This document shows positions 4,580 to 7,185 of a stretch of 64,000 nt of DNA, one piece after another. This DNA comes from Verticiella sediminum. Lineage in GTDB: Bacteria; Pseudomonadota; Gammaproteobacteria; Burkholderiales; Burkholderiaceae_B. How positions within the stretch are numbered: the first letter of the stretch is position 1; the number at the start of each line of letters is the position of its first letter. The translations under genes and the position numbers were made by a program. The stretch spans positions 186,001 through 250,000 of the forward strand of contig NZ_VLTJ01000029.1 of assembly GCF_007558815.1 (NCBI RefSeq). Reading direction: 5' to 3'. The notes beneath the pieces were generated by a model. It had not been told where the DNA came from. It made no database searches and saw only the letters and a list, made by a program, of their open reading frames with translations.

Positions 4580-5323
4580 ATGCGCACGAGCCAGTTCGCC
4601 CAAGAAAAAACGCAACGATTTTCAGTCCGGATGTGGGCGGCCCTCGCAGGCATCGTCCTGCTGGCCTCCGGGTGCGCCAGCACCCAGCCCCCCTCCGCTT
4701 CCGCCCAGGTCGACACCGCCTTCGTCCCCGCCCAGCAGTCCGCGCACCGCGCCAGCAATCTGGACGAGCTGGATCGCCTTCTTGCCCGCCTCGAGCAACC
4801 GGACGTCCGGCTGGCCTCCCGCAAGCCCTCCCCGGGCCTGTTCGAACAGCCGGTTTCGGCACGTGACGATTTCGTGAGCCAGGCCATGGCCTACCTGGGC
4901 ACGCGCTATCTCTATGGCGGAGATTCCCCCGACGTGGGCTTCGACTGCAGCGGGCTCATCTGGTTCACTGCGCGCGAATCCCTCGGCGTGCAACTGCCGC
5001 GCAACGCCGCGGGCATGGCCAAGGAAGGCCAGCAAGTCAAGCGCGCCGAACTCAAGCGCGGCGACCTCGTGTTTTTCAATACGCAGGGCCGGCGCTATTC
5101 GCATGTCGGCATCTACGTCGGCAACGGCCGCTTCCTGCACGCGCCCAGCACTGGCGGCCACGTGCGCGTCGATGAACTGGGTGCGCGCTACTGGAATGCG
5201 CGCTACAACGGCGCCCGGCGCCTGGCCGGGCTCAATGGGCCGGTCCTGGCCGACGCCATCGCGCCCAAGCAAGCCACCAAGGTGGCCGCCAACCAGGCCA
5301 ACCGCCGCACCGCGCGACGCTGA
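4580..5323 (+). CDS. NlpC/P60 family lipoprotein, probable murein DL-endopeptidase
   Basis: 247 residues. The N-terminus is a lipoprotein signal with lipobox LASGC, lipid-modified Cys32, so it is predicted to be anchored in the envelope. After a low-complexity linker (33-95) comes an NlpC/P60 domain with catalytic Cys123 (FDCSGL), His175 (SHVGIYV) and a third polar residue His187 (FLHAPS), the standard Cys-His-His set. Proteins of this type (Spr/MepS, MepH) cut D-Glu-mDAP or related peptide bonds during cell-wall growth. It is monocistronic, with its own promoter candidate and a 3' hairpin. The basic, Ala-rich C-terminal tail after about residue 220 is unlike the catalytic domain and probably disordered. 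Confidence 0.88.
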   Translation: MRTSQFAQEKTQRFSVRMWAALAGIVLLASGCASTQPPSASAQVDTAFVPAQQSAHRASNLDELDRLLARLEQPDVRLASRKPSPGLFEQPVSARDDFVSQAMAYLGTRYLYGGDSPDVGFDCSGLIWFTARESLGVQLPRNAAGMAKEGQQVKRAELKRGDLVFFNTQGRRYSHVGIYVGNGRFLHAPSTGGHVRVDELGARYWNARYNGARRLAGLNGPVLADAIAPKQATKVAANQANRRTARR

Positions 5324-5369
5324 ACACGCGCGCGGCTTTCCGCTCAAGCCTGACAGATTCAGACAGCAC

Positions 5370-5406
5370 AAGGGCCGGCCTCCCCTACCCAGGGGAGCCG
5401 GCCCTT
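5370..5406. terminator. Hairpin between NlpC/P60 gene and convergent DUF2325 gene
   Basis: 16-bp stem (left arm 5370-5386 with one bulged C, right arm 5391-5406) with a 4-base loop, between two convergent genes. No T-run on either strand; probably a bidirectional terminator. Confidence 0.6.
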
Positions 5407-5441
5407 GCCATTGGCCCCTCGTCACTGGCCTTGCCGGTGAT

Positions 5442-5819
5442 TCAGCCTCGTCGACGCAGCATCTTCACGACCTGTTCCTGCTGCGGCTCCTGCCGGCAGG
5501 CACTGCCATCGCCTCCGCACAGGCCGCAGCTCTCCAGCGCCTGCTGCATGCTGCAGACCGAACGTCGACAAGCCACCACGCGGATGCCGGCGCGCTGGGC
5601 CGCCTGGCGGAAGGTCTTCATCACGTTGTGCCCGAGGAAGTCCGTGAGCAATATGACCAGTTCCGTTCCGCTGGGCAGTTGCAGCGTCTTCTTCTGGTGC
5701 GAGGGGTCGCGCCCGCTGATGTGATGCGTGATGGCGATGTTGAGTCGCTTCAGCAGGTCGGGAATGTTGCCCAGGCGATCGGCACCTACGATCACCGCAC
5801 TGATGGTCGCCGCAGACAT
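5442..5819 (-). CDS. DUF2325 domain-containing protein
   Basis: 125 residues, nearly all of it a DUF2325 domain: an N-terminal Rossmann-like strand-loop (ISAVIVGADRLGNIPDLL), a central GRDPSHQ segment, and a TDFLGHNVMKTF block. The C-terminal tail is cysteine-rich, with five Cys in the last 45 residues (CRRSVC, CGLC, AC), which could bind metal or sense redox state. The biochemical function of DUF2325 is not established to my knowledge. The start at 5819 is chosen over an upstream in-frame ATG at 5867 because GGAG precedes it by 5 bases and the longer version would translate through a Fur box. The Fur box at 5850-5868 makes it a probable iron-repressed gene. It is monocistronic, between unrelated neighbours. 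Confidence 0.8.
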   Translation of the reverse strand: MSAATISAVIVGADRLGNIPDLLKRLNIAITHHISGRDPSHQKKTLQLPSGTELVILLTDFLGHNVMKTFRQAAQRAGIRVVACRRSVCSMQQALESCGLCGGDGSACRQEPQQEQVVKMLRRRG

Positions 5820-6153
5820 GGTGGCTCCGTGGAATGGTTGACTGCGGATGATGATAATTATTCTCATCTTCCTGAGTCAACATGAATGCGAATTATTCCC
5901 ATTTAAATTTACAATGAGCTTGTCCAGGCTGATTGACAGTGATGTTCAGACACACGCAGGGAGAGGCGTGGACCGACCGGCGCCATGGTGCTTCCGAGCA
6001 TGTTCGTCCCCGCCTACGCACTGGGCCTGCGGCGCTTCCAGCCGCCGCAGGTGCGGTGGACGCGAAGACGTCAGGAACGATGGATGGCCATTGCCGGCCT
6101 ATGCGGGATAAACCCCTGGTGCAATGGCCCCGCCCCTGACGGGCGCAGCGTGC
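5820..6153. other. Intergenic region upstream of DUF2325 gene
   Basis: 334 bases without a credible gene. It holds the Fur box at 5850-5868, an AT-rich stretch to about 5925, and then GC-rich sequence of no recognised content down to the end of the ABC permease gene. Confidence 0.6.
5850..5868 (-). promoter_or_regulatory. Fur box upstream of DUF2325 gene
   Basis: On the minus strand the 19-mer GATGAGAATAATTATCATC matches the classical Fur consensus at 14 of 19 positions by eye. It ends 31 bases before the start codon, where a promoter would be. A weaker, partly similar AT-rich element follows at about 5885-5902. Confidence 0.8.
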
Positions 6154-7185
6154 TCAACGACGCGAGGAAGCCTGTGTACGCATGCGCGGATCGATGAATA
6201 TGTACAGGATGTCCACCGCAAGAAACACCAGTACGTAGAGCATGGATGCGTAGATCACGAAGCCTTGCAGCGCCGCGAAATCCGATTGCTGTATGGCTTG
6301 AAGTGCATACTGGCCCACGCCCGGCCAACCGAAGATGGCTTCCAGCAGAACCGCGCCGCCGAAAATGAAGCCCGCGATCCCGCCCACCAGGGTGACGACG
6401 GGCAGCAGCGCGTTGCGCAGGCAATACCGGAACCACACCACGCGCCGCGGATGCCCCATGGCGAATGCCGTACGTACGTAATCGCTTTGCAAGGCCTCCA
6501 CCATGGCTGAACGTGTCACGCGCGCGACGGGCGCCAGCGTCGTGATCGCCAAGGTGAGCGCAGGCAGGATCAAGGCGGTCAAGGCTTGCCAGAACTTGCG
6601 CGGGTCTCCCGCCAGCAAGGTGTCGACAAGCATGAAACCCGTCACGGTGGGTGGCGGCGAGACGCCCAGGGGCAGGCGCCCGACGGGGCCGGGCAGCCAT
6701 TGCAGGTTGACGAAGAAAACCAGCAGCAAGACCAGCCCGATCCAGAATTGAGGCAAGGCCATCCCGGTCAGCGTGACCCAGCGCAGCAGGAAGTCGGGCC
6801 AGCGTTCGCGGTTCACCGCGGCGATGACGCCGGCGGGAATGCCAACCAGCAGCGCCAGCCCCAGCCCCAGGATGCCCAGCTCCAGCGTCGCGGGCAGGCG
6901 GTTGCTCAGGTCGGTCATGACGTCGTTGCCGGTGGAGAACGATCTGCCCAGATCGAATTGCAGCAAATCCCCGAGGTAGCGCAGAAACTGGACAGCCAAC
7001 GAATCGCCCAGGCCAAGCTCCTGACGAATCTGCGCGATCAGCTCGGTGGTGGCTTCGGGCGGTGCATAGAGTTCGGTGGGGTCGCCGGTGAACACCCGGG
7101 CGGTAAAGAATGTGATGGTAACGACGCCCAGCGCGACCGGAATGATCCACAGTATGCGGCGCAGCAAGATGGCAGCCAAGGACAT
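6154..7185 (-). CDS. ABC transporter permease, DppB/OppB family
   Basis: 343 residues with an N-terminal transmembrane helix, a long periplasmic loop, and five further membrane segments, the standard DppB layout. The EAA-type cytoplasmic loop that docks on the ATPase is visible (VEALQSDYVRTAFAMG), as is the family's C-terminal IFGWPGVGQYALQAI segment. It is one half of the inner-membrane channel of a peptide/nickel-type importer; the partner permease is encoded divergently at 11872. It is last in the minus-strand arm, one base after the second monooxygenase gene. This split of the two permeases over divergent arms is unusual, since dppB and dppC normally adjoin. Confidence 0.92.
   Translation of the reverse strand: MSLAAILLRRILWIIPVALGVVTITFFTARVFTGDPTELYAPPEATTELIAQIRQELGLGDSLAVQFLRYLGDLLQFDLGRSFSTGNDVMTDLSNRLPATLELGILGLGLALLVGIPAGVIAAVNRERWPDFLLRWVTLTGMALPQFWIGLVLLLVFFVNLQWLPGPVGRLPLGVSPPPTVTGFMLVDTLLAGDPRKFWQALTALILPALTLAITTLAPVARVTRSAMVEALQSDYVRTAFAMGHPRRVVWFRYCLRNALLPVVTLVGGIAGFIFGGAVLLEAIFGWPGVGQYALQAIQQSDFAALQGFVIYASMLYVLVFLAVDILYIFIDPRMRTQASSRR

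Follow-up and report, generated by a model that had tools for sequence, protein, structure and literature searches.

The locus lies in the window (the whole 64,000-nt stretch of Verticiella sediminum DNA analysed here) and comprises a small minus-strand gene, its upstream region and the genes on either side of it:

4580–5323, plus strand: NlpC/P60 lipoprotein-like gene (PF00877, 2.9e-30), a convergent syntenic neighbour outside the claimed function
5442–5819, minus strand: DUF2325 gene of the GAD subfamily, 125 aa (by PF10087 and orthologues; start by orthologue alignment)
5496–5498, minus strand: codon of C108, by residue position
5517–5570, minus strand: cysteine segment C84 to C101 (CRRSVC...CGLC), by residue positions and conservation counts
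5825–5828, minus strand: GGAG, ribosome-binding-like sequence, 5 nt ahead of the ATG
5847–5865, no strand assigned: predicted Fur box, best register, 16/19 matches to GATAATGATAATCATTATC
5853–5871 (15/19) and 5850–5868 (14/19), no strand assigned: further overlapping Fur registers, by consensus match
5851–5880, minus strand: sigma-70-like promoter with TTGACT (5880–5875), an 18-nt spacer and TATCAT (5856–5851)
6154–7185, minus strand: next same-strand gene, encoding an ABC permease and ending 334 nt upstream of the ATG

The encoded protein passed the PF10087 profile test (53.7 bits against a cut-off of 33.6, E 2.5e-14, residues 7–97), confirming the DUF2325 identity assigned in an earlier reading of the bare sequence (the sequence-only reading), and was the only PF10087 match within its own 6.0-Mb genome. 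A weak match to the ATP-sulfurylase profile (E 0.0075) was under the cut-off. We defined a GAD subfamily for this analysis by the patterns GADxLGx(I/L) and H(I/L/V/F)(S/T/A)(G/A)R and a length of ≤200 aa; the window protein falls within this definition and carries the signature VGADRLGNIP, HHISGRDPxHQ, LTDFLGHNVM and ACRRS. The start codon was placed at 5819 (an ATG, read as CAT on the plus strand at 5817–5819) because orthologues align from this position and GGAG stands at 5828–5825; a similar purine run was seen in many orthologues. The start at 5867 given by the sequence-only reading, with its ATG within the Fur box, is therefore 48 nt too far upstream. Its description of a stand-alone gene was correct, given the convergent NlpC/P60 gene downstream and the distance to the permease gene.

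Fur boxes were scored as matches to the 19-base consensus named above. The three registers at the locus ranked as the top three among the 63,982 19-mers of the window, and the 14/19 site noted previously at the promoter proved to be one of them. The Fur box overlaps the −10 of the predicted promoter, a pattern found once in 5330–6000 against a mean of 0.1 in shuffles; a box overlapping the promoter is a usual location for repression. Across 19 aligned upstream regions, the block GAATNATTATC was invariant while most other upstream DNA drifted, the ATTATC core was invariant, and the −35 retained its first T throughout and the next two bases nearly so. A second conserved stretch above the −35 (window positions 5885–5905) reads AAATAAGAA..TCTCATTT in many relatives and AAATGGGAATAATTCGCATTC at the window, and may be a second, weaker Fur-type site. 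No RNA element was found at 5300–6200 at Rfam gathering scores.

Fur sites elsewhere in the own genome were sought by pattern search only. Allowing up to three mismatches to the 19-mer, only two places were found genome-wide, one of which was the DUF2325 site. A longer palindromic consensus occurred at seven places, compared with none for the reversed control pattern. The six other places adjoin the starts of an LprI-type gene and of genes from two classes that Fur typically controls, ECF sigma (four genes) and imelysin (one). The genome also encodes four Fur-family proteins matching PF01475 over the cut-off (best 8.3e-44).

Conservation of the box was examined within 150 nt upstream of the gene in two sets of loci. 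The named loci were 80 of 152 relatives, chiefly Achromobacter, Bordetella, Pigmentiphaga, Pusillimonas and their kin, giving 81 with the window. The survey set comprised 50 GAD subfamily loci from other genomes, 21 from the same family and 29 from outside it. The survey was not random: its 21 same-family loci were taken from 131 matching genomes and were chiefly weaker matches, 6 of 55 PF10087 places in one sample and 7 of 15 long proteins in another were left out, and places matched only in a third PF10087 sample also lie outside it. The 80 named and 21 same-family survey loci may share species, and gene starts were set by script at the nearest ATG and are possibly off in single cases (L101 starts with TTG).

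All 81 named-or-window loci scored at least 13/19 (range 13–16) and 74 of them at least 14/19. In the survey, the corresponding counts were 44 and 42 of 50, divided into 21/21 and 20/21 within the family and 23/29 and 22/29 outside it. Upstream regions of neighbouring ORFs, used as controls, reached at least 13/19 in only 17 of 662 cases and at least 14/19 in four, one of which belonged to the porin gene beside L144. These 662 control ORFs (≥150 aa) were called mechanically and probably include many that are no genes, which likely makes their upstreams richer in GC than promoters. Dinucleotide shuffles of each locus's own AT-rich 150 nt served as the composition control; only 61 of the 81 named-or-window boxes and 35 of the 50 in the survey beat 99 of 100 shuffles. 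Because of kinship, the loci are not independent events.

Six survey loci fell below 13/19. Four of these (L117, L119, L122 and L131) are second copies whose sisters (L124, L130, L120 and L134, respectively) have boxes. L144 lies 5 nt behind the porin gene, which itself bears a 15/19 box, and is probably in one operon with it. The sixth, L153, scores 12/19 and fits neither case. In the four two-copy survey genomes (G473, G501, G564 and G570), the box was present on one copy only, and the boxless copy had fewer cysteines. Outside the subfamily, none of seven small DUF2325 genes reached 13/19, although one of them (L154), whose open frame spans 224 aa, may be a longer protein with a wrongly set start. 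Four of 22 long DUF2325 proteins reached 15/19; these four (L157, L158, L163 and L169) are proteins of about 430 aa with an HCP(V/I)IG.CL N-terminus and Fur-type sites of 15–16/19.

A predicted box over the promoter, conservation of that box above control and an encoded Fur-family protein were thus all found, and the placement of the DUF2325 gene in the iron-starvation regulon is well supported. The comparison of 74/81 and 42/50 loci with 4/662 controls at the 14/19 level, together with the footprint across relatives, argues that the box is not a chance match and bears out the iron control proposed in the sequence-only reading. We consider the gene almost certain to be under Fur control.

The cysteine-rich tail was less constant than the box. 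Five cysteines occur in the last 45 residues, as described earlier (positions 84, 89, 98, 101 and 108 of 125), and were followed through 66 subfamily proteins (the 50 survey loci, 15 of the 80 named loci and the window). C84 was invariant (66/66), C89 was present in 45 and C98 in 32, while C108 was found in 34 of 51 proteins; these tail columns shift with the alignment used. A CxxC after CRRS was present in 56 of the 66 and absent from ten. Seven of these ten (L133, L135, L138, L143, L181, L185 and L193) keep a 14–17/19 box, and the other three (L117, L122 and L131), all second copies, score 10–12. Since seven proteins lacking CxxC keep the box, Fur control and the cysteine tail are not strictly tied, and the tail cysteines are not conserved throughout the subfamily. 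The sequence-only reading had named orthologues lacking the cysteine tail and the box as part of what would count against it; the box proved to be kept, the tail often but not always. Its proposal of a metal or redox tail finds partial support: C84 is invariant and CxxC is present in most proteins, but C89 and C98 vary.

The more constant residues lie in the core. In a set of 80 DUF2325 domains covering all forms, H64 was found in 80, H33 in 77 and D60 in 73, and a cysteine occupied position 84 in 51 of 51 subfamily proteins compared with 0 of 29 other forms. The AlphaFold2 model alternates strand and helix (beta-alpha-beta-alpha-beta-alpha-beta-alpha) with middling confidence (pLDDT 74.7; residues 103–125 below 50), and its strands 1 to 4 are followed by GADRLGN, GRD, TDFLGH and CRRS, respectively. 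Rossmann-like proteins bind ligands at such strand ends. The model thus suggests that the constant core of H33, D60 and H64, joined by C84 in the subfamily, would be placed at the strand ends of a Rossmann-like fold. Searches for a solved relative by sequence gave none that was convincing (best E 0.13), and fold searches of the PDB returned generic Rossmann or receiver-like matches with no functional lead, the best being 7p8e by Foldseek (E 9.5e-4) and 1yqe (AF0625) by VIA (Z 9.2).

Gene neighbourhoods differed between close and distant relatives. In 79 of the 81 named-or-window loci, the NlpC/P60 gene lies downstream on the opposite strand, and no iron reference gene was found near any of the 81 by tblastn. 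In 54 of the 80 named loci and in 13 survey loci, the neighbouring gene upstream on the same strand encodes a LysR protein of the CysB family (one representative checked); at the window, the ABC permease gene stands in its place. For the 29 outside-family loci, about 4 kb on each side was searched by tblastn and representatives were checked. Thirteen of the 29 lie near bacterioferritin, a ferric-binding-type substrate-binding protein (SBP), a TonB receptor or FeoB; individually, these were found at eight, seven, four and one loci. FMN_bind and PepSY occurred in three of the 29, and a peroxiredoxin gene likewise in three. The bacterioferritin gene (bfr) is on the same strand 296–398 nt downstream in six loci and about 3 kb away in two more, the eight loci belonging to six families. 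A representative Bfr was confirmed by TIGR00754, and representatives of FeoB, TonB receptor, FMN_bind, PepSY_TM and AhpC-TSA by Pfam. The ferric reading of the SBP rests on PDB relatives of the L125 protein, of which the second and third best are 2pt1 ('iron transport protein') and 2voz ('periplasmic iron-binding protein') and the best, 6g7n, has a general name only; the other six SBP were recognised by tblastn only. NCBIfam gave no substrate for the divergent SBP, the best models for L125 and L146 being of phosphonate and thiamine types, below cut-off.

Of the 24 genomes with the subfamily, 21 have Bfr, compared with 37 of the 96 that lack the subfamily (Fisher p 1.3e-5, ignoring kinship and genome size). 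At a further locus, L211 (G495:C272:11500-17500), a subfamily gene is broken over two frames; its upstream region carries a 14/19 site, and bfr is found at a distance of about 440 nt. The frame break appears to reflect an assembly error or decay. G495 is in no count, and moving it would change the Bfr table to 22/25 versus 36/95; the p value given above is that of the table without this change. Among the small DUF2325 genes without box or signature, L139, L140, L142 and L147, and also L148 and L149, lie near a gene for a sulfate-binding protein, SsuC or a cystathionine-synthase/lyase-like protein, the sulfate-binding protein gene adjoining in four of seven loci; this suggests a branch for sulfur limitation. 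Among long DUF2325 genes, bfr lies near L170 and L175, and a CbiX-domain gene near L175 and, by tblastn, near L156, L160 and L163.

An alignment-based search gave matches in 131 of 151 genomes of the family and in 5 of the 321 sampled from the class, own genome included. PF10087 itself matched in 41 of 120 genomes sampled from the order, 21 of 321 from the class and 27 of 398 from the phylum, many of the matches being the long form. PF10087 also takes in proteins of about 430 aa whose middle resembles a coiled coil, as well as small proteins that have neither a Fur box nor the subfamily signature. A mobile element was ruled out for the DUF2325 gene, which had no phage match (no PHROG match up to E 1) and, with two seed patterns, no relative in viral contigs. 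A plasmid collection gave two weak matches, both in Bacillota at 31–32% identity. The best viral structural match (BFVD A0A8S5RIN7, virus sp. ctHG14, 484 aa) is itself named DUF2325, indicating that the domain occurs also in viruses.

Because the Fur box is conserved in nearly all relatives examined and iron genes are often neighbours in distant ones, the DUF2325 gene very probably belongs to the bacterial response to iron starvation. The footprint and, in distant relatives, the gene context also lend good support to the role in iron homeostasis suggested by the sequence-only reading. A biochemical role may be sketched as follows. When iron is replete, Fe-Fur on the −10 region would repress the gene; as iron falls, a small cytosolic Rossmann-like protein would be made, with intracellular iron handling during starvation as its likeliest job. 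A ligand or Fe(II) could sit in a pocket where the four beta-strands reach their C-terminal ends, lined by residues that follow strand 2 (H33 and R37), strand 3 (D60 and H64) and strand 4 (C84-R-R-S). The protein might then help to carry iron between its users and either stores (bacterioferritin) or the products of uptake (ferric-binding-protein import). The variable CxxC tail, modelled with low confidence, would lie outside this core and add an accessory thiol or metal site. Intracellular iron handling with a core pocket and an accessory tail is the best explanation we can offer, and we judge it about evenly balanced between right and wrong. Counted against it are the lack of an iron neighbour at the 81 named-or-window loci and the presence of one at under half of the outside-family loci. 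In addition, bfr and a Bfd match lie 286 nt apart elsewhere in the own genome, on contig C23, so there is no obvious gap to fill. The middling confidence of the fold model with its generic PDB matches, the CysB-type neighbour in the named loci, the shuffle counts and the kinship of the loci also weigh on this reading.

Among the alternatives, a chance box on a gene unrelated to iron is extremely unlikely. AT-rich promoter stretches do raise the score, as the shuffles showed; however, the box is conserved across genera and families amid drifting DNA, and neither the rank of the site in its genome nor the control rates of 4/662 at 14 and 17/662 at 13 would be expected of a chance match. A thiol or oxidative-stress protein, iron-repressed through co-regulated peroxide defence and iron limitation and using its cysteines to scavenge or sense oxidants, is a more serious candidate, though still rather unlikely. 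It could draw on a peroxiredoxin (AhpC-TSA) gene that is divergent in three of the 50 survey loci (best NCBIfam model PrxQ, below cut-off) and on Cj1384c of Campylobacter jejuni, which, according to passages of PMC9426514, lies by katA, rises 352-fold in violet-blue light, has PerR and RacRS ties and yields a mutant that is sensitive at the top dose only. The tail cysteines, however, vary or vanish while the Fur box stays, and peroxiredoxin neighbours (3/50) are rarer than iron neighbours (13/50).

We regard as quite unlikely a protein of joint iron and sulfur limitation, serving, for example, Fe-S or cysteine economy, with one branch under Fur and a sister branch under sulfur control. The seven small non-signature loci (sulfate-binding protein at four, SsuC at one and cystathionine-synthase/lyase-like at one) and the CysB-family neighbour at 54 of 80 named loci point in this direction. 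Those seven loci, however, include three from one family, and a sulfate-binding gene is also near one of 50 subfamily loci (L117, boxless) and one of 22 long ones; the CysB neighbour, which the window lacks, may reflect nothing more than synteny. The spacing of bfr in the eight loci, with the uncounted ninth case in G495, would fit a protein that assists Bfd, or does its work, in freeing iron from bacterioferritin. Such a role is very unlikely: no Bfr was found at E 1e-20 in 3 of 24 subfamily genomes (G528, G567 and G570), and Fer2_BFD was absent among Pfam matches up to E 1. For the own genome, replacement of Bfd is ruled out by the Bfd match already present there, 286 nt away from Bfr. Between iron handling on the one side and a redox or sulfur role on the other, our confidence in iron handling is about even.

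With a Fur-type site of at least 13/19 at 125 of 131 subfamily loci, the activity of the product is still a gap in the iron-starvation response, and specific tests can be built on the core residues and on the neighbouring genes for bacterioferritin and ferric-binding proteins. More broadly, DUF2325 might be a family that handles iron inside the cell, using a novel site for metal or ligand (H33, D60 and H64, with C84 in the Fur branch) to shuttle iron from bacterioferritin or from fresh import, and with a sister branch recruited for sulfur limitation; we offer this wider reading tentatively, as one that is probably wrong as a whole.

Bfd (PF04324) is alike in role only: it is a small cysteine protein with a bfr neighbour in some genomes, and bfd is repressed by Fur. 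In contrast, the window protein has a Rossmann-like model without a Fer2_BFD match, and a Bfd match stands elsewhere in the same genome. In anammox bacteria, DUF2325 appears as a possible secondary cargo of encapsulin, according to a figure legend (PMC6934571), and is likened to the present protein by domain name only. An Ensifer DUF2325 gene is described as falling in a passage of PMC6637203. The literature searched gave no link between DUF2325 and Fur in beta-proteobacteria. The sequence-only reading was right that the family has no established function, yet passages of two papers had already reported a Fur-regulated, cysteine-rich DUF2325 protein in Campylobacter (PMC9426514, PMC4491227). 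This protein, Cj1384c, has 104 aa and seven cysteines, showed the largest rise under violet-blue light and resisted purification attempts, and its mutant had greater sensitivity at the highest light dose only, as described in parts of PMC9426514; it was lowered in biofilm samples in a passage of PMC12056249. The conserved core residues and iron-gene neighbours described above could help explain the strong induction of this homologue. Cj1384c and the window protein are both small, cysteine-rich DUF2325 proteins, likened here by description and not by sequence, whereas Campylobacter belongs to a different phylum, and the position upstream of katA and the links to PerR and RacRS besides Fur (passages of PMC9426514) are those of Cj1384c.
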